Positions 2,935 to 64,000 of a stretch of 64,000 nt of DNA are shown one piece after another. A program made the translations under genes and the position numbers. The notes under the pieces were generated by a model that worked only from the letters and a program-made list of their open reading frames with translations, was not told the DNA's origin and searched no databases. Each line of letters opens with the position of its first letter. Position 1 is the stretch's first letter. The stretch is from contig NZ_LN876584.1 in NCBI RefSeq assembly GCF_001282725.1, positions 1,122 through 65,121 on the forward strand. The letters are read 5' to 3'. This DNA comes from Inediibacterium massiliense. GTDB taxonomy: Bacteria; Bacillota; Clostridia; Peptostreptococcales; Thermotaleaceae.

Positions 2935-2958
2935 AAAAGGCGTCTCATGGACGCCTTC
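2935..2958 (-). terminator. Terminator for the first chemoreceptor gene, distal copy
   Basis: On the minus strand AAGGCGTC / GACGCCTT forms a stem with a 5-nt loop followed by TTTTT. A degenerate copy of the same hairpin without a U-run lies at 3163-3185, next to the chemoreceptor stop codon. Repeat A1 separates the two. Confidence 0.75.
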
Positions 2959-3162
2959 AGACTATTACAAAACTATACTTTAGCAAAGTCATAAAAATTA
3001 GGAACATTTATTGAGAATTTGTGAAAATATAGAATAAGGGAGAAAATCATTAGCATTACACTGTTTGAGCAAAGCGAGTTTGTAATGCTATTTTCGATCG
3101 TTTCTTTATATTTTCCAAATTTGAAAATTTAGTGACGTTTTTTATGACTTTGTCTACAAATT
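2959..3162 (+). repeat. Family A palindromic repeat, copy A1 (204 bp)
   Basis: Long imperfect palindrome. Outer arms AAAGTCATAAAAA / TTTTTATGACTTT are at about 2984-3152. The centre is AGCATTACA...TGTAATGCT around the conserved GTTTGAGC...GCGAGTTTG. Other copies are at 36442-36609, 36611-36814, 39376-39579 (inverted) and 58027-58230, with a fragment at 41253-41301. This copy is bracketed by two related hairpins (2935-2958 and 3163-3185). It fills most of the 335-bp gap and no gene is present. Confidence 0.85.
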
Positions 3163-3186
3163 AAAACCGTCTCATAGTCGCCTTCC

Positions 3187-5229
3187 CTACATAACAAATT
3201 TGTTGATTTCTATAGTCAATTCTTTTGTCAGTTCATTGAGTTGATTTGCTGCATTCGCTACTTCATCTACAGTACTTGCTTGTTGTTGCATAGATGCACT
3301 TACTTGTTCTGCAGAAGCTGCTGTTTCTTCTGAAACTGCTGAAATATTTTGTATAGAGAGTACAATATCATCCTTGTCTCCATTAATTTTTTCAATTTCT
3401 AAACTGATATTCTCAATTCGATCCGTAATATTTTTAATAGTTGTATAAATATGATTAAAAGAGTCATTTACATCCATTACAGCTTTTGATTGTTCTTCTG
3501 ATCTTTCTTTTACTTCTTTCATAGTTTTTACACTCTCATTAGCTTGACTTTGTATGTCTCCTACTACTTTTTTTATTTCATCAGCAGATTGTCTAGATCC
3601 TTCTGCAAGCTTTCTGATTTCATCTGCCACTACTGCAAATCCTCTCCCTGCATCTCCTGCACGTGCCGCTTCAATAGATGCATTGAGTGCTAATAAGTTG
3701 GTTTGTTCTGCTATAGAATTGATGGTTTCAATCATATCTCCTATGTTTCTTGATTTTTCTTCTAATTCATAAATCACTTTTTCTATCTTTATGGTAGATT
3801 CATTATTTAAGTTTGTTTTTTGTTTTAATTCTCCTACTACCTTTGTCCCTGCTTGACTTGCATCAATCACAGTTTTTGCTGAATTTGACATGTCTTCATT
3901 TTCTGCCATTAACTGTTTAAATTTATCATCTAGATTCGATACTAGTAAAGCTCCTTTTTCAGTATCTTGTGCTTGTTCACTTACTCCTTTTGCAATCTCT
4001 TCAACAGCTCTTGATACTTCTTCTATAGATACATTTGTTTGCTCAGATGAAGCCGCTAAATTTGTTGCCGATCTTGATACTTCTTCACTAATATGATTGG
4101 CCTTACAAATTAATTCTTTTATACTATCTACCATAGTATTAAAAGTAGTAGAAATCTCTCCTATTTCATCATTAGAGTCTATATTTAACTTCACAGACAA
4201 GTCCCCTTTTGAAACAGAACTTAATCCAGCTAAAATCTTAGGTACATTCTTTAAAATTTTCTTCGTAAAAAGAAAAATTACTACACTTAAAACAATACAA
4301 CTAAATGTATATATGAGAATGACAATGGTTCTAATTTTTTTAACATATTCTAGTATATAATCTTCATCTATTGTCATACCTATGGACCATCCATTTAATT
4401 TGATAGGAGTATAAGCCATATATTTTTTTACCCCATCAACAGTATATTCTTTTGTATCTGATTCTCCTTTGATCATACTTTGTGCAATTTCACCAATTTC
4501 ACCTGACTCTTTTGCCATATTTACTTTTAGAATTTTATCTTTATCTGGATGATATACTACATTTCCTTGTTGATCTAGGAGTACAGCATAACTGTTTTCA
4601 CCAATTTTATATTGGGATAATATTGTTTCTAATTGATCTATATAGATGTCAATAGCAGCAGCCCCTATAGATCTTGATTCTTCAAATATAGGTGTAGCTA
4701 CAGTTACTGCTACTTTTCCTGTAACGCTATCTACATAAGGAGAGGAAAAATATGTATCTCCCTTTTTAACTGTATCTATATACCAAGGCCTTTTTAACAA
4801 ATCATAATCAGCTGCTACTTCATAATTTCTATCTTCACTAATAAAATTTTTATTATTTTCTAACGCTACATAAACCAATCCTAGATCAGTATCCGAATTT
4901 TTTACTCTTTGTAAGGTGTTTAATATGGCTTCATAACCTGGTAGTTGTTTAACTGCTTTTCGATCCGTTACACTTTCTGTTTCTTTAATATAATGGATGA
5001 TATTTTCTGTATAAGCCAAAGTCGGAGTAATGGCATATTTTTTTGCAAAAAAAGCTTCTACCTTCGTTCCAATATTGTTTGCTTCATTCATAATTTGTTT
5101 CATTGCTAATTCATTCACCATACTGCTTACTCTACTATTAATAAATACTCCAGTAAATACAAAAATCATAATAGCTACAGATAAAACTACCGCCAACAGT
5201 TTATTTGCAATATTCATATTTTTTTTCAT
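3187..5229 (-). CDS. Methyl-accepting chemotaxis protein, Cache type (copy 1)
   Basis: 680 aa. In order: a short cytoplasmic start; TM1 (about 10-30); a large extracytoplasmic dCache-type sensor (about 40-280); TM2 (about 285-308); a HAMP linker (about 308-360); and a long coiled-coil signalling domain. Its hairpin tip (about 500-545) contains [18 protein letters not shown] and [14 protein letters not shown]. It signals to CheA/CheW on binding an unknown ligand. No C-terminal CheR-docking pentapeptide is seen (ends EINKFVM). It is a tandem paralogue of the gene at 5413-7455, of identical length and very similar throughout, including the sensor. AGGAGG precedes the ATG. Confidence 0.93.
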
Positions 5230-5394: not shown

Positions 5395-5414
5395 AAAAGG
5401 GCCTAAGCCCTTTT
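5395..5414 (-). terminator. Rho-independent terminator of the second chemoreceptor gene
   Basis: AAAAGGGC-CTAA-GCCCTTTT hairpin overlapping the stop codon of the 5413-7455 gene. The same hairpin core is used after the L25 gene at 7575-7598. Confidence 0.75.
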
Positions 5415-7455
5415 ATATTACAAATTTATTGATTTCTGTAGTCAATTCTTTTGTAAGTTCATTGAGTTGATTTGCTGCATTAGCTACTGCATCTACAGTA
5501 CTTGCTTGTTGCTGCATAGATGCACTTACTTCTTCTACGGAAGCTGCTGTTTCTTCTGAAACTGCTGAAATATTTTGTATAGAGAGTACGATATCATCTT
5601 TATCTGTATTCATTTTTTCAATTCCTAAACTAATATTGTCTATTTTATCTGTAATACTTTGAATGGACATATAAATATGATCAAAAGACTCATTCACGTC
5701 TATTACTGCTTTAGATTGTTCCTCGGATCTTTCTTTTACCTCTTTCATGGTTTGTACACTTTCATTGGCTTGATTTTGGATATCTTCTATTACTCTTTTA
5801 ATTTCCTCTGCCGATTTTCCTGAGCCTTCTGCAAGCTTTCTGATTTCATCTGCTACTACTGCAAATCCTTTTCCTGCTTCTCCTGCACGTGCCGCTTCAA
5901 TAGATGCATTGAGTGCTAATAAATTGGTTTGTTCTGCTATAGAATTGATAGTTTCTATCATATCTCCTATATTTCTTGATTTTTGTTCTAATTCATAAAT
6001 CACTCTTTCTATCTTTTTAGTAGATTCATTATTCAAAGTAGTTTTTTGTTTTAATTCTTCTACTGTCTTTGTTCCTTCTTGACTTGCATCAATGACTCCC
6101 TTTGCTGAATTGGACATGCCTTTATTTTCTTGAATGAGTTCTTTAAATTGATCATCTAGATTAGATACCAATAAAGCTCCTTTTTCAGTATCTTGCGCTT
6201 GTTCCGTTACTCCTTTTGCAATCTCTTCAACAGCCCTTGTTACTTCTTCTATAGATATATTCGTTTGGTCTGATGCTTGAGCTAAATGGGTTGCAGATTT
6301 TAATACTTCTGCACTAATATGATTCACTTTTCCAATTAATTCTTTTATACTTCTCACCATCATATTAAAAGTAGTGGCGATTTCTCCTATTTCATCATTG
6401 GAGTCTATATTTAAATCTACAGATAAATTTCCTTTTGAAACAGAAGTTAACCCCTCTAAAATTTTAGGTATATTCTTTAATATTTTCTTTGTAAACACAA
6501 AAATAGCTACACTTAAAACAATACAGCTCAGTGTATATATTAAAATAACTATAGTTCTAATTTTTTTAATATAATCTGATATATAATTTTCATCTATTGT
6601 CATAGCAATAGACCATCCATTTAACTCAATAGGTGTATAAGCCATACGTTTTTTTACTCCATCTATAGTATATTCTTTGATATTTGATTCTCCTCTAATC
6701 ATACTTTTTCCAATTTCACCAATTTCACCTGACTCTTTTGCCATATTTACTTTTAAAATTTTATCTTTATCAGGATGATACACTACATTTCCTTGTGAAT
6801 CTAGCAGTACTGCATAGCTATTTTTTCCAATTTTGTATTGAGATAATATTTCTCCCAATTCTTCTATATAAATATCCAATACAGATGCACCTATAGACTT
6901 TGAATTTTCAAATATAGGTGTAGCTACGCTAACTACTGTTTTCCCTGTCACACCATCTATATATGGAGAAGTAAAATATGTATTCCCACTTTTTATAGTA
7001 TCTGTATACCAAGATTTTTGGGATAAATCATAATCATCTGCTACTTCATAATTTCTATCATCACTTATAAAATTATTATTTTTTTCTAATGCTATGTATA
7101 CTAATGCTAAATCAGGATCAGAGGCTTTCACACTTTGTAATGTATTTAACACTGCTTCATAGCTTGGTAATTGCTTAACTGACTTTCGATCCCCTACGCT
7201 CTCTGTTTCTTTTATGTAATTGACGATATGATTTGTATTGGCAATAGTTGGAGTGATGGCATATTTTTTTGCAAAGAAAGTTTCTACTTTAGAAGCAATA
7301 CTCTTAGATTCATTCATCACTTGCTTCATCACCAATTCATTGACTATGCTACTTACTTTGCTATTGATCACAATTCCAGAAAATATAAAGATAATCATTG
7401 CCAAAGTAAGTATTACCGCAAGCAATTTGTTTGCAATACTTATATTTTTTTTCAT
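5413..7455 (-). CDS. Methyl-accepting chemotaxis protein, Cache type (copy 2)
   Basis: 680 aa, same architecture as the downstream paralogue: TM1 (about 10-30), dCache-type sensor (about 40-280), TM2 (about 285-308), HAMP, then a signalling domain with [18 protein letters not shown] and [16 protein letters not shown]. The sensor domains of the two copies are close to each other, so this is a recent tandem duplication in which ligand range may have started to differ. AGGAGG lies 8 nt before the ATG. It has its own terminator and the TGTCGAAATA upstream motif, so the copies are probably separate transcription units. Confidence 0.93.
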
Positions 7456-17082: not shown

Positions 17083-17150
17083 AATAAGAAAAATTCTTTC
17101 ATTTCATTCAGAATTTCCCTTCCTTAAAATTTATAGAAACTTTAATCTTC
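17083..17150 (+). repeat. Family B repeat, partial copy B3
   Basis: Contains AAATTCTTTCATTTCATTC and then AGAATTTC, ending in a diverged TTAAAATTT..GAAA..CTTTAATC part. It corresponds to the right two thirds of the copies at 43170-43275 and 63511-63616. It lies between the SRP RNA terminator and dnaX. Confidence 0.6.
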
Positions 17151-17203
17151 TAAAATAGTTAACAATTTTAACTTTTCTATACCATTGTAATTAACATAAA
17201 AAA

Positions 17204-17743: not shown

Positions 17744-17820
17744 ATAAAATTCGCAAGCTCATGGCGCCAACGAAATCTCTTCATTGCATTCAAGATTTCC
17801 GTTGCTTAAAAATAAGAAAC
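17744..17820 (+). repeat. Composite of family A end and family B repeat (B4)
   Basis: Begins AAAGTCATAAAATTCG, like the outer arm of family A (compare 58055-58068). It continues with the family B core (GCTCATGGCGCCAACGAAAT, ATTTCCGTTGCTTAAAA) and ends AAACAATTATTGAGAATC, again like the inside of family A. It lies between the tRNA-Ser promoter and the 3' end of the UbiB-family gene. Confidence 0.5.
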
Positions 17821-36441: not shown

Positions 36442-36609
36442 AACATTATAAAAAATAAGGAACAGTTATTAAGAATTTGTGAAAATATAGAATAAGAAAG
36501 AATTTGAATAGCATTACACTGTTTGAGCAACGCGAGTTTGTAATGCTATTTTCGATCGTTTCTATATATTTTTCAAATTTGAAAATTAGTGACGTTTTTT
36601 TATAACGTT
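36442..36609 (+). repeat. Family A palindromic repeat, copy A2 (variant ends)
   Basis: Same body as the other copies (GAGTTTGTAATGCTATTTTCG). Its outer arms are AACATTATAAAAAA / TTTTTTATAACGTT instead of AAAGTCATAAAAA / TTTTTATGACTTT, so both arms changed and largely kept pairing. Directly abuts copy A3. Confidence 0.8.
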
Positions 36610-36610
36610 A

Positions 36611-36814
36611 AGACTGTTGATAAACTACATTTTGACAAACGTCATAAAAATTAGGAACAATTATTAAGAATTTGTGAAAATATAGAATAAGTGAGAAAAT
36701 GAATAGCATTACACTGTTTGAGCAACGCGAGTTTGTAATGCTATTTTCGATCGTTTCTATATATTTTCCAGATTTGAAAATCAGTGACGTTTTTTATGAC
36801 TTTGTCTACAAGCT
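36611..36814 (+). repeat. Family A palindromic repeat, copy A3 (204 bp)
   Basis: Starts AGACTGTTGATAAAC and ends TTTTTATGACTTTGTCTACAAGCT, the same length as copies A1 and A5. In tandem with A2 between the convergent HD-GYP-like and metallo-hydrolase genes. The 424-bp gap holds nothing else. Confidence 0.85.
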
Positions 36815-36839
36815 CGACATTTTTTTATACCGTTGTTAT

Positions 36840-38690: not shown

Positions 38691-39378
38691 TAAGGATCAA
38701 TATGACATAGATATTTCTACAAATTGGCTTATTACCTATAGTGATATGATCACTATTATTCTTTGTTTTTTTATCATATTCTTTAGCCTCAATGCAAAAG
38801 AGATGAGTATGCTTACAGAAATCAAAGATTCTCTTTCAAAAAAAGTATCTACTTTAACTTCTGAAAACGAAAAATTAAAAGAAGAAAGAAATTCTTTAGC
38901 CGCAAAGCTATTTGGCCTTACAGACATTGAAAAAGATGTAGTAACTTCCAAAGAAGATTTTATTACTTTTTTAAGAAAAAATAATCTCCTAGATCAAGTA
39001 AAAATCCTTGAAAATGAAAGAGGACTTGTGATTCGATTTAGAGACAGCATTTTATTTCCAAGTGCAAAAGCAAATATTTCAAAAGAAGGCTATGAAGTAT
39101 TAGATCATATTGGAGAAAAATTAAAAAATATAGACAATGATATTATCGTAGAAGGATTTACAGATAATCTTCCTATTCGTACGAAAGAATTTCCTTCTAA
39201 TTGGGAATTATCTGTAGCCCGTGCTATACATGTAGTAAAATTTCTTACAGAAACAAAAGGAATTGATGAAAATAGAATTTCTGTAAGTGGCTTTGGAGAA
39301 AGAAAGCCTATTGATACAAATAAAACTTCTACAGGAAGGTCTAATAATAGAAGAATTGAAATTACTATATTAAATTAA
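38680..39378 (+). CDS. motB: MotB-family stator protein (OmpA domain)
   Basis: 232 aa from the ATG at 38680, with GGTG 7 nt upstream; a GTG at 38668 is less likely. A single N-terminal membrane helix with the ion-binding Asp (TYSDMITIILCFFIIFFS, about 19-37), a coiled-coil linker (about 45-80), and a peptidoglycan-binding OmpA domain (about 110-230; DSILFPSAKANIS, EGFTDNLPI, NWELSVARA, NRISVSGFGERKPI, NRRIEITI). Anchors the stator to the wall. The Asp in the YSD motif is retained. Confidence 0.92.
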   Translation: MEDDKDQYDIDISTNWLITYSDMITIILCFFIIFFSLNAKEMSMLTEIKDSLSKKVSTLTSENEKLKEERNSLAAKLFGLTDIEKDVVTSKEDFITFLRKNNLLDQVKILENERGLVIRFRDSILFPSAKANISKEGYEVLDHIGEKLKNIDNDIIVEGFTDNLPIRTKEFPSNWELSVARAIHVVKFLTETKGIDENRISVSGFGERKPIDTNKTSTGRSNNRRIEITILN

Positions 39379-39579
39379 AAATAAACAAAGTCATAAAAAA
39401 CGTCACTAATTTTCAAATTTGGAAAATATATAGAAACGATCGAAAATAGCATTACAAACTCGCTATGCTCAAACAGTGTAATGCTATTCATTTTCTCACT
39501 TATTCTATATTTTCACAAATTCTCAATAACTGTTCCTTATTTTTATGACTTTGCTAAAATATAGTTTGTCTTCAGTTTG
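39376..39579 (-). repeat. Family A palindromic repeat, copy A4 (inverted)
   Basis: Inverted relative to A1-A3. The arms at 39387 and 39553 are AAAGTCATAAAAA / TTTTTATGACTTT and the centre keeps ACAAACTCGC and GCTCAAACAGTG. Placed between motB and its terminator hairpin. The left boundary is taken from the 204-bp length of other copies and would touch the motB stop codon. Confidence 0.75.
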
Positions 39580-41164: not shown

Positions 41165-41252
41165 CTATATAAAATAATACATTTATGTATGTTAACACCC
41201 TATTGTAAAAAAGTCAATAAAATCTAAAGTATTACAAATAATTCCCTTGTAG

Positions 41253-41301
41253 CTAAAGTCATAAAAAACGTCACTCATTTTCAAATTTGGAGAATATACT
41301 T
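41253..41301 (-). repeat. Family A repeat, fragment A6
   Basis: TAAAGTCATAAAAAACGTCA, then TTTTCAAATTTGGAGAATATA, identical in layout to one end of copy A4. The rest of the element is missing. Lies between the riboswitch promoter region and tRNA-Lys. Confidence 0.65.
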
Positions 41302-43169: not shown

Positions 43170-43275
43170 AAAAAATTCGCATGTTCCTATGGTCACTGCT
43201 CATGGCCTAAGCGAAATTCTTTCATTTCATTCAGAATTTCCGTTGCTTAAAATTTGATGAAAATCTAACTTTTTA
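43170..43275 (+). repeat. Family B repeat, copy B1
   Basis: About 105 bp beginning AAAAATTCGCATGTTCCTAT, with GAAATTCT...AGAATTTC arms in the middle and TTAAAATTTGATGAAAATCT near its end. Matches the inverted copy at 63511-63616 over its whole length. Lies inside the pst operon between pstC and pstA. Confidence 0.8.
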
Positions 43276-43289
43276 AAATGATCTACAAT

Positions 43290-44153
43290 TTATTCATTTA
43301 TATAATTTCTTAAAAAGCAAAATATCATATTCACAATAAAAAGAATCATCATAAGTACAAAGCCTGATGCAAATAAAGCATGATAATGAATACTATCTAC
43401 TTCTGCTCCTCCCATTTCCAGGGCAATTAAAGATGGAATCGTTTGAGCTTTTCCAAATAATTTGGGGAAAATAGGACTATTTCCAATAACCATCATAACA
43501 GCCATAGTCTCTCCCATACTCCTTGCAAAGCTTAGAATCATTCCAGCCAATATACTCTTTTTAGAGGATGGTAAAACAAGATATCTAATCATATGCCACT
43601 TTGATATTCCTAGTGCATCTGATGATTTTTTATATCGTTCTAAAATCTTAACCATAGATTCATCACAAGTAGAAATCATATATGGCAGGGTCATAATAGA
43701 AAGGAGTATCCCTCCCACTAATACACTTTCTCCTGATGGAAAATAAAAATGCTTTTCAAAAAATTTTACCAATACCAAAAGACCCATCAATCCATATATG
43801 ACAGATGGAATCCCTGCTAGTAAATCTATAGCAGGTTTTATCATATTTCTAACTTTTCTATCTACTACACTGCTTAAAAATATAGATGCTCCTACTCCAA
43901 TAGGAATGACTATGATTAATGCTACAAAGGATACATAAAATGTGGACAAAATCATAGGGAAAATAGAAACTTGTGGATGAATTTCTGTTGGATTCCAATG
44001 ACTTCCTAATATAAAATCTATAAAAGATACTTGTTTAAATAAAATTATACTTTCCTTTGCAATAAAAAAGATAATAAAAGTTAAAATAGCTACAGAAAAA
44101 AAAGTAAGTATTCTCACCATATGAAAAAATATTTTTTCTCCTTTATACATCAT
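43290..44153 (-). CDS. pstC: Phosphate ABC transporter permease PstC
   Basis: 287 aa, six helices. PstC features: FILGSHWNP (about 44-52) after TM1, DLLAGIPSVIYGLMG (about 108-122), DALGISKWHMIRYLVLPSSKKSILAG (EAA coupling loop, about 180-205) and SFARSMGETMAVMMVIGN. Partner of PstA. AAGGATG precedes the ATG. It follows pstS after a strong hairpin that probably lowers its expression relative to pstS. Confidence 0.92.
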   Translation of the reverse strand: MMYKGEKIFFHMVRILTFFSVAILTFIIFFIAKESIILFKQVSFIDFILGSHWNPTEIHPQVSIFPMILSTFYVSFVALIIVIPIGVGASIFLSSVVDRKVRNMIKPAIDLLAGIPSVIYGLMGLLVLVKFFEKHFYFPSGESVLVGGILLSIMTLPYMISTCDESMVKILERYKKSSDALGISKWHMIRYLVLPSSKKSILAGMILSFARSMGETMAVMMVIGNSPIFPKLFGKAQTIPSLIALEMGGAEVDSIHYHALFASGFVLMMILFIVNMIFCFLRNYINE

Positions 44154-57292: not shown

Positions 57293-57943
57293 TTATGTTT
57301 CTAATCTATATCCTACTTTATATACAGTACTTATTTCTTCAAATAGATCTAATTTTTTTCTAAGCTTTTGAATATGCATATCAACAGTCCTAGTTTCTCC
57401 TATATAATCATATCCCCAAACTTTCTCTAGTATTTTTTCTCTTGATAGAGCAATCCCTCTATTTTCTACTAATAATATTAAAAGTTCATATTCCTTTAAC
57501 GTAAGATCTATATCGGCTTCATCCTTTTTTACAACTCTCTCTTTTAAATAGATATTAATATTTTTAAAAGTAAGTTCTTCTTTTTTTGTACATCTTCTTA
57601 AAACTGCTTCTACTCTTGCTAAAAGCTCTATAGATTGGAAGGGCTTTACAATATAATCATCAGCTCCCATTTTTAGTCCTTTCACTCGATCTGATAAATT
57701 ATCCTTTGCAGTCAAAAAAATAACTGGAATATCCAAATGATTGATATTTTCCATAATGGTATATCCATCTAATATAGGGAGCATTACATCTAATAAAATC
57801 AAGTTGAATTTTTCATCTTTTATAATTTTTAAAGCCTTCTGTCCATCATATACTTGTTTCGTTTTATATCCTACCATTTCTAGATTTAATTTTATTAAAT
57901 CAGAAATAGCCTCATCATCCTCTACAATTAAAATTGTTCCCAT
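57293..57943 (-). CDS. OmpR-family response regulator
   Basis: 216 aa. Receiver domain (about 1-118) with acidic D9/D10, phospho-acceptor D52, T78 and K100. C-terminal winged helix (about 125-216; LTLKEYELLILLVENRG, REKILEKVWGYDYIGETRTVDMHIQKLRKKL). Likely partner of the histidine kinase at 59393-60799, though a lipoprotein gene and a family A repeat lie between them. AATGGG-type weak ribosome binding site (AGGAGTGT) upstream. Confidence 0.93.
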   Translation of the reverse strand: MGTILIVEDDEAISDLIKLNLEMVGYKTKQVYDGQKALKIIKDEKFNLILLDVMLPILDGYTIMENINHLDIPVIFLTAKDNLSDRVKGLKMGADDYIVKPFQSIELLARVEAVLRRCTKKEELTFKNINIYLKERVVKKDEADIDLTLKEYELLILLVENRGIALSREKILEKVWGYDYIGETRTVDMHIQKLRKKLDLFEEISTVYKVGYRLET

Positions 57944-58026
57944 TTTTTACACTCCTAAAAATAACTTTTAATTTATTATATAACTTTTTTTAAAAAAAGA
58001 AAAAGTATAAGGAATATCCTTATACT

Positions 58027-58230
58027 CAGTCTGTTGACAAAATACATTGTAGCAAGGTCATAAAATTCGGAACAATTATTGAGAATTTGTGAAAATATAG
58101 AATAAGGAAGAAAATGATTAGCATTACACTGTTTGAGCATAGCGAGTTTGTAATGCTATTTTCGACCGTTTCTATATATTTTCCAAATTTGAAAATCAGT
58201 GAAGAATTTTATGACTTTATCTATAAGCTC
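58027..58230 (+). repeat. Family A palindromic repeat, copy A5 (204 bp), between duplicated hairpins
   Basis: Outer arms GTCATAAAATTC / GAATTTTATGAC (12 bp, perfect), centre AGCATTACACTGTTTGAGC and GCGAGTTTGTAATGCT. It is bracketed by a 23-bp palindromic hairpin present at 58004-58026 and again at 58231-58253, differing at one base. The left copy is followed on the minus strand by a T-run and is the real terminator of the lipoprotein gene. The 308-bp gap holds nothing else. Confidence 0.85.
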
Positions 58231-58251
58231 AGTATAAAGAATATCCTTATA

Positions 58252-59298
58252 CTATCTAAAAACTATTACATGTACTTTTTTTTCTGTAGGATCTATATAT
58301 AACTCAATTTTTTTATTTTCATAGGAAAAAGTAATATATTCTGCATATTCATTCACAGTTTTTCCTTCATACTTTGCACCTTTTATCCCTACTTTTTCTA
58401 AATATTTCATAGCAATTTCTTTTTCTTCTTCTTCATTTATTTTTTGAGTCGGTTTTTTTAGGTCTTTATTTAACCCTTCTACCAATACTAATTTTCCACT
58501 TTCAGCATCTACTTGAGCACCATATGTAATATCTTTATAATCAAGCTCACCTTCTACATCCTGCCAATATATAAACCATGTATTTTTATTTTTTCCATCT
58601 ACTAAATTAATGTTTTCTACAAAATCATTTCTATTTATTTTTTTATCAAAATATTTTTCTACCCCATCTATAGCAATAGATACAGCTTCTTCTTTCTTTA
58701 CTTTTACATCTTGGTTATTAAAATTTTTCCTTTTGGTATGATAAAGATCTACTACCTTTTCATGATCTAATTCAATAGATATATGGTTATTTTCTCCATA
58801 GCAAAATCCGAAGTCAGAAATTTTTCCATTTTCTTTTGCATGGGACAACTCTAAATTTTTTGTATCTTCTACTATATTATTTTCTTTTATAAAAGCTAGT
58901 GCTTTTTCTTTTTCTTCTCTTAAATTGATTTCTCTGTTTTTTTGTTCATTAACGGATTTTGTATCTACCATTTCTACAATTTGACCTGTTTTTGTATCTA
59001 ACCCTACTCTATATTTTTGCTTATCCTTTTCATCTACCCAAACAACTCTCCAATAATCATTTGGCCAGACATAATCATCTTTCTCCATTAAAATAGTTTT
59101 TATAGTTAATCCATCTGTATCCATATCTCTTTTAAAGTATTTTTTGTAACTGTCCCTAGCATTCTTTATCAGTTCTTCTTGATTCATATTTTCTTCTTGT
59201 TGTACTTTTTCTGTCATTACTTTATTTTTAGGAATTTCTTGACCCACACACCCTGTCAGTAATGCTCCTACTAATAATGTAATCCATATTTTTTTCAT
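58252..59298 (-). CDS. Lipoprotein with PepSY/YcdB-like repeats
   Basis: 348 aa. Lipoprotein signal ending LLTGC (Cys17). The mature part is charged and appears to hold repeated alpha-beta units like PepSY/YcdB-type domains: YWRVVWVDEKDKQKYRVGLDTKTGQIVEM (about 82-111), FIYWQDVEGELDYKDITYGAQVDAESGKLVLVEG (about 243-276) and a last YITFSYENKKIELYIDP. In these, helices are followed by a strand pair and the D-x-x-T/S-G-x-h-v turn. It lies between the kinase and regulator genes and may sense or modulate that system at the membrane surface. Function unproven. Confidence 0.75.
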   Translation of the reverse strand: MKKIWITLLVGALLTGCVGQEIPKNKVMTEKVQQEENMNQEELIKNARDSYKKYFKRDMDTDGLTIKTILMEKDDYVWPNDYWRVVWVDEKDKQKYRVGLDTKTGQIVEMVDTKSVNEQKNREINLREEKEKALAFIKENNIVEDTKNLELSHAKENGKISDFGFCYGENNHISIELDHEKVVDLYHTKRKNFNNQDVKVKKEEAVSIAIDGVEKYFDKKINRNDFVENINLVDGKNKNTWFIYWQDVEGELDYKDITYGAQVDAESGKLVLVEGLNKDLKKPTQKINEEEEKEIAMKYLEKVGIKGAKYEGKTVNEYAEYITFSYENKKIELYIDPTEKKVHVIVFR

Positions 59299-63435: not shown

Positions 63436-63471
63436 AAAATTCCCATGTTGCTAGCAACATGGGAATTTTTT
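63434..63471. terminator. Terminator of glsA-agcS
   Basis: AAAAAATTCCCATGTTGC / GCAACATGGGAATTTTTT stem directly after the agcS stop codon, with T/A runs on both sides. Confidence 0.85.
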
Positions 63472-63510
63472 AATCTTTAGGAAATTATATCAATGAATAG
63501 ATTGTGGATA

Positions 63511-63616
63511 ACTTTAGAAAGTTAAATTTTCATCAAATTTTAAGCAACGGAAATTCTAAATGAAATGAAAGAATTTCGTTGGCGCCATGAGCAGTTCCGA
63601 TAGGAACATGCGAATT
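63511..63616 (-). repeat. Family B repeat, copy B2 (inverted)
   Basis: Inverted match to the copy at 43170-43275. Read on the minus strand it starts AAAAAAATTCGCATGTTCC, contains the perfect hairpin GTTCC-TATC-GGAAC, then CATGGCGCCAACG and the GAAATTCT...AGAATTTC arms. Lies right after the racemase stop codon. Confidence 0.8.
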
Positions 63617-63619
63617 TTT

Positions 63620-64000
63620 TTATCTATATACTTTACTTACAGAATTAGAACCACTTAAATATAACATAGGTGGATAATACATATGAAAATCTATTACATC
63701 TCCAATTTTTATATCTTCTTTACAATCATGAATATCTACAATTAAATGATCACTACTACTTCCTACAATTTTAACTCCCTCCATTTGAGGAATCAATTTA
63801 TCATCAAGAGCAAAATCTTGTTTTCCTACGGCAAGTAATGCTCTTTTTCTTATTCCATGATCTTCATAAGTAGGAGCTCTTCCAAAAGCATCAATGAAAA
63901 TTTCTCCAATAGGATGAGTAGGTTTATTTTTCACTTCTACAACTTGCGCTTTTAAAACAAACGTGTCTTGGTGAAATGGACTCATATCATAGCCCCAAAA
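63620..64000 (-). CDS. Ornithine/alanine racemase-family PLP enzyme, C-terminal part (cut by window edge)
   Basis: The frame is open through the right edge, so the in-frame ATG at 63985 is probably internal. 126 residues are visible. They form the C-terminal part of an alanine-racemase-like fold: FVLKAQVVEVKNKPTHPIGEIFIDAFGRAPTYEDHG, RKRALLAVGKQDF, VKIVGSSSDHLIVDIHDC and the final GDVIDFHMYYPPML. The GEIFIDAFG and GSSSDHLI motifs fit the ornithine racemase-type subgroup rather than classical Alr. The catalytic Lys lies outside the window. Confidence 0.8.
   Translation of the reverse strand, partial: FWGYDMSPFHQDTFVLKAQVVEVKNKPTHPIGEIFIDAFGRAPTYEDHGIRKRALLAVGKQDFALDDKLIPQMEGVKIVGSSSDHLIVDIHDCKEDIKIGDVIDFHMYYPPMLYLSGSNSVSKVYR

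Follow-up and report, generated by a model that had tools for sequence, protein, structure and literature searches.

Within the window, the whole stretch of 64,000 nucleotides of Inediibacterium massiliense DNA that was analysed, two minus-strand genes are separated by a 204-bp element, A5, which is bracketed by two copies of a 23-bp hairpin (Table 1). This arrangement had been noticed in an earlier reading made by a model from the DNA letters (the sequence-only reading), and its coordinates were confirmed: the two hairpins are identical at 22 of 23 positions, with a spacing of exactly 204 bp. Its observation that a T-run follows only the distal copy also proved correct, distal being understood relative to the upstream minus-strand gene. 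On the minus strand, the distal hairpin is followed by TTTTTCTTTTTTT and was scored as an intrinsic terminator, whereas the proximal hairpin, within which the gene terminates, runs into the element without a T-run. DNA folding gave -6.8 kcal/mol for the distal hairpin, the same as for the single hairpin of the sister species described below, and a weaker -3.3 kcal/mol for the proximal one. The distal copy is predicted to be the working terminator of the gene, and probably is. The two flanks of A5 had a local-alignment score of 42, compared with a maximum of 30 among 576 mismatched-copy pairings; the duplication of the hairpin is therefore not due to chance.

Table 1. Features of the A5 locus and further copies of the element, in window coordinates
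Feature	Position	Strand	Description
Response regulator gene, downstream	57293-57943	-	Receiver and C-terminal DNA-binding domains
T-rich tract of terminator	57990-58003	-	3' of the distal hairpin on the minus strand
Distal hairpin copy (target duplication)	58004-58026		AGTATAAGGAATATCCTTATACT; same as the one hairpin at the empty site
MITE copy A5	58027-58230	+	204 bp, ends CAGTCTGTTGACAAA ... TTTATCTATAAGCTC; boundaries from copy alignment and empty site
A5 left terminal repeat	58027-58041	+	CAGTCTGTTGACAAA; differs at one position from the family consensus CAGACTGTTGACAAA; consensus agrees with the left end of the G008 IS (see text); also supported by a pattern search
A5 right terminal repeat	58216-58230	+	TTTATCTATAAGCTC; family consensus TTTGTCTACAAGCTC, reverse complement GAGCTTGTAGACAAA; from alignment of copies
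Proximal hairpin copy	58231-58253		AGTATAAAGAATATCCTTATACT; one base changed; overlaps the stop codon of the upstream gene
Upstream gene, served by the terminator	58252-59298	-	348-aa protein with YcdB/YcdC and YpeB-type domains (the lipoprotein of the sequence-only reading)
MITE copy between duplicated hairpins	2958-3163	+	AAGGCGTCTCATGGACGCCTT; right hairpin eroded
Tandem MITE pair	36452-36815	+	First copy truncated (36452-36610), second 36610-36815
MITE copy	39375-39579	-	Intact hairpin AGGCAGTTCCTATAGGAACTGCCT at left side only
MITE fragment, right end	41246-41298	-

Two other kinds of repeated sequence were observed in the window. A second repeat family, AAGCAACGGAAAT...GATTTCGTTGGCGCCATGAGC, stands alone at 17085-17181, 17757-17811, 43170-43325 and 63465-63620, and it was also found inside composite copies of the element elsewhere (L042, L047, L048, L053, L252, L255 and L257). 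Two adjacent 680-aa ORFs on the minus strand (3187-5229 and 5413-7455) are 88% identical in DNA sequence over 300 bp or more and represent a recent tandem gene duplication.

Genomic copies, their flanks and empty sites

About 90 copies of the element were found in the 3.5-Mb genome, comprising 89 match clusters distributed over all large contigs, plus others recognised from the left end alone. The census was based on sequence searches and on the stretches that were read, so this copy number is a minimum. The element has the properties of a MITE: it is short (204-206 bp, with some shortened variants), multicopy, dispersed and without a transposase gene, its ends CAGACTGTTGACAAA / GAGCTTGTAGACAAA form an imperfect inverted repeat, and both target duplications and empty sites are present.

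The flanks of 79 two-ended copies were analysed, and seven copies with secondary insertions were set aside, leaving 72 that were scored. The likeness between the two flanks was above the 99th percentile of the 576 mismatched pairings in 48 copies, and above their maximum in 47. Duplicated hairpins thus recur across the genome, a point on which the sequence-only reading had wanted its proposal to be judged. No clear duplication was found in the remaining 24 copies, most of which keep a hairpin on one side. The duplicated unit is the terminator palindrome, mostly 16-30 bp in length, and the outermost base pair of the stem directly adjoins the element in 30 of 48 left copies and 25 of 48 right copies. 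For 39 well-defined copies, the duplication measured 13-29 bp (mostly 20-25 bp) and the hairpin 17-29 bp, with a Spearman coefficient of 0.67 and a median difference of 0.

The typical layout of a site is A-run, hairpin, element, hairpin and T-run; the original target was thus a terminator palindrome flanked by an A-run and, at its opposite foot, by a T-run. The left hairpins, on the T-run side, are better kept than the right ones (significant in 50/72 versus 33/72), a difference to be expected if termination depends on the distal copy. Shortened variants were also found between duplicated hairpins, namely L057 and L090 (96 bp), L084 (83 bp), L048 (157 bp), L070 (158 bp) and L251 (38 bp), implying that these internal deletions either moved independently or arose in place.

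The genome of a sister species in the same genus (G001) contains an ortholog of the window gene with 86% identity, and the element is absent at this locus. The sequence-only reading had expected a single hairpin with a U-run at such an element-free site. A single 23-bp hairpin with its T-run was indeed found, followed by TTTTTCTATTTTT, and the two BLAST segments that match the window overlap by exactly those 23 bp. Ten further loci were compared with the sister genome by joining the flanks of each copy. Seven could be aligned across nearly the whole joined sequence and show one hairpin where the flanks meet, two aligned partly and included one hairpin, and one (L014) gave no resolvable empty site. 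At another site, the duplication around copy L058 is eroded, and the same site in the sister species (L226) has the duplication intact. As a side observation, nine contigs of the sister assembly (C20, C34, C40, C43, C46, C53, C99, C27 and C81) start or stop at or near copies of the MITE, which probably breaks assemblies.

Tandem terminators occur in bacteria, and the two hairpins might accordingly represent an earlier tandem pair, or a local duplication, between which the repeat was inserted later. However, only one hairpin is present in the sister species, both at the window locus and at nine others; with these single-hairpin empty sites, pre-existing twin terminators are excluded at the tested loci. 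The same arrangement is moreover seen at 48 of 72 unrelated sites, each with its own palindrome. We therefore give this explanation practically no credence, and regard the second hairpin as a product of the insertion.

Five MITE copies were found to be interrupted by a group II intron encoding a 427-aa RT/maturase, always at one and the same base, which lies 13 nt past the right hairpin (intron loci L112, L113, L114, L115 and L116 in copies L027, L039, L078, L082 and L091, with L257 probably a sixth). The end of the MITE beside a hairpin seems to offer a ready-made landing site for the intron.

Relationship to IS1182 elements

No IS1182-type transposase was detected in the I. massiliense genome with PF13751, PF05598 and NF033551, or in the sister genome with PF05598 and NF033551. 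No autonomous partner of the MITE was thus found in the same genome; such a partner would be needed for present mobility but not for descent. Only host genes, the group II intron and one short ORF were found beyond unpaired MITE ends when a parent element was sought there, and the matches to the left end alone were traced to truncated or composite copies, with no parent among them. A 178-aa ORF at L101:2285-2818, located a few kb from a truncated MITE copy, looks by eye like an IS200-type transposase; no link between the two is implied.

A PF05598 scan of 40 relatives, followed by comparison of those loci with the MITE ends, revealed a related IS in a genome from another genus of the same family (G008). 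This IS is 1573 bp long and is present in six near-identical copies. It starts with TCAGACTGTTGACAAAGTATA, which agrees with the left end of the MITE at 19 of 20 positions, although the likeness is limited to the terminus and the internal sequences are unrelated. At its right end, the MITE is similar to IS1182 elements of Bacilli, whose right terminus reads TTTCTCAACAAGCTG. The G008 transposase was assigned to IS1182 by NCBIfam NF033551, each half scoring under the whole-protein cut-off, and contains the Pfam domains DUF772 and DDE_Tnp_1_6. In the copies that were read, its coding sequence (L117:1321-2804) is divided at an A-rich stretch between two overlapping frames. The copies hardly differ elsewhere, and the split is suggestive of a programmed frameshift.

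Five of the six G008 copies lie between duplicated palindromes, of 13, 13, 15, 19 and 22 bp. One copy (L149) duplicated a 13-bp palindrome inside a sigma-factor-like ORF, and because this duplication lies within a gene, a T-run does not appear essential for insertion. The proposal of the sequence-only reading that the element targets intrinsic terminators consequently needs to be restated. Terminators are the commonest targets, but the U-tract seems dispensable; the target is the palindrome, of which terminators are the commonest kind.

The GTDB genome collection was searched for transposases of the G008 type, giving 33 loci, and both IS ends were recognisable in 11 of them. Exact palindrome duplications were seen at ten of these 11 loci, which come from Paenibacillus, Sporosarcina, Cytobacillus, Siminovitchia, Niallia and a Clostridia MAG; the duplications measure 16, 20, 21, 21, 21, 22, 23, 23, 24 and 30 bp. 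The remaining locus, from a second MAG, shows an imperfect 17-bp match. Palindrome duplication is therefore a habit of this IS1182 group and is common to the MITE. The autonomous elements from G008, Paenibacillus, Sporosarcina, Cytobacillus, Niallia and Siminovitchia share with the MITE related termini and palindrome duplications of variable length, but differ from it in carrying a transposase gene and in their unrelated internal sequence.

Most MITE duplications cluster at 20-25 bp, which would also be compatible with a transposase that duplicates a near-constant stretch of about 23 bp around a centre of dyad symmetry, the match to the hairpin length being a by-product. The duplications of the autonomous relatives, however, range from 13 to 30 bp and coincide each time with a palindrome, and in the MITE itself the duplication length correlates with the hairpin length and the boundaries fall at the base of the stem. 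A fixed length is therefore improbable, and we favour a duplication whose extent is set by the palindrome.

The insertion sites of class C introns lie downstream of Rho-independent terminators (PMC3522654), so the MITE could be imagined as a remnant of, or as having been moved by, a group IIC intron, and the five copies interrupted by a group II intron might seem to point the same way. However, that intron stands apart as a unit with RT and RNA domains of its own, an Rfam scan of the window detected no intron RNA family over the element, which suggests that the 204 bp lack intron domains V and VI, and the left end of the element is that of an IS1182 IS. Group IIC introns and the MITE both target the position behind terminator hairpins, but the introns home through RNA to a position downstream of the hairpin, and no duplication of the hairpin has been described for them. 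We know of no intron insertion that duplicates the hairpin. An origin from such an intron can hardly be credited, and descent from an IS1182 element is preferred.

Orientation of the copies

At sites between co-directional genes, the element is antisense to transcription in 56 of 60 cases (p = 9e-13); hence transcription mostly meets the right hairpin first and the left hairpin, with its T-run, second. The orientation was also analysed by contig. All 31 copies on contig C13 point one way, all 7 on C12 do likewise among themselves, and on C14 all 10 copies below 0.93 Mb share one orientation and 5 of 6 above 1.30 Mb have the opposite one. The sampled GC skew of C14 changes sign between 1.01 and 1.09 Mb. 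Judged by local GC skew, the MITE orientation matches the replication strand in 69 of 74 copies on contigs C10, C12, C13 and C14. In the window, the copies starting at 2958, 36610 and 58027 follow this rule, and the copy at 39375-39579 departs from it. Gene direction and replication are confounded in these data, and at 11 sites that separate the two, 9 copies follow replication (one-sided p = 0.03). The six copies of the G008 IS are oriented 3:3, with no bias.

The insertion model proposed below does not predict that the MITE should have such a bias. Tentatively, a DDE transposase might read shape, such that hairpins extruded on single-stranded (probably lagging-strand) DNA are joined at their feet; the target would then set the duplication length and replication the orientation. 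We put this forward as one possibility, with some doubt.

Insertion into palindromes and its implications

Considering the shared left end and the shared style of duplication, we propose, with a probability of about 0.92, that the MITE is a non-autonomous IS1182 derivative that was put into short palindromes by an IS1182-type transposase, with duplication of the whole palindrome. On each strand, one 3' end of the element would be attached to the target at the palindrome's 5' foot. The stagger would then equal the palindrome length, and gap repair would copy the whole palindrome to both flanks. Landing in terminators would follow from the fact that most strong intergenic palindromes are intrinsic terminators. 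After insertion, the copy far from the gene would retain the T-run and continue to terminate, and the near copy would be free to decay. We infer this strand-transfer chemistry, the recognition of extruded hairpins and the continued termination from the end products, and the transposase would once have been present in the genome or been supplied in trans. The sequence-only reading had the element enter between the hairpin and the U-tract and duplicate the hairpin. The duplication on entry is upheld, but the point of entry is better described as both feet of the palindrome with a stagger of palindrome length.

Hairpin targeting by this family has been described before. IS1272 and TnSha1, which have an IS1182-type transposase, resemble the MITE in that their targets are hairpins without a primary sequence consensus, many of them terminators (PMC4923244, PMC5678879). 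However, they delete or replace the stem and produce no target duplication, and Furi et al. 2016 (PMC4923244) reported that they partly delete terminator hairpins; the MITE duplicates the whole palindrome and carries no gene. In the model of Wan et al. 2017 (PMC5678879), IS1272 itself removes the stem-loop, and duplication of the stem-loop is drawn as pathway b. For the targeting of palindromes by certain members of the IS1182 family, both papers refer to Siguier et al. 2015. Our sites differ from stem replacement of the IS1272 type, since the palindrome is duplicated whole and the empty site is single-copy. They agree with pathway b, as judged from end products, in having a whole stem-loop at both sides and a length set by the stem-loop.

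Other small mobile repeats resemble the MITE in part. The MITEs of Methanosarcina acetivorans that are partnered by ISMac2 (PMC3852290) are likewise short (160-169 bp), non-autonomous and attributed to an IS1182-family IS, but their direct repeats are 0 or 4 bp and palindrome duplication was not reported there. SPRITE, BOX and RUP of Streptococcus pneumoniae (PMC10969869) are also small intergenic mobile repeats, and SPRITE is terminator-like; there the repeat itself resembles a terminator, whereas the MITE targets and duplicates a terminator of the host. In the literature on terminators as targets of ISs and MITEs, we did not find palindrome duplication described, although an earlier account in ISfinder or in Siguier et al. 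2015 is possible. The MITE represents a hairpin-duplicating variant within a known type of element; in the papers that were read, duplication of the whole stem appears only as a proposed model.

Transposases normally give a target duplication of fixed length. In this MITE and in its autonomous relatives from several genera, the duplication length follows the target palindrome. The hypothetical pathway b (Wan et al. 2017) has thereby become directly testable. For annotators, duplicated terminators can mark insertions and fix their exact boundaries. The neutrality to the host suggested by the sequence-only reading is plausible, given the preserved terminators: a mobile element can fill the terminators of a genome and yet leave a hairpin and a T-run in place.
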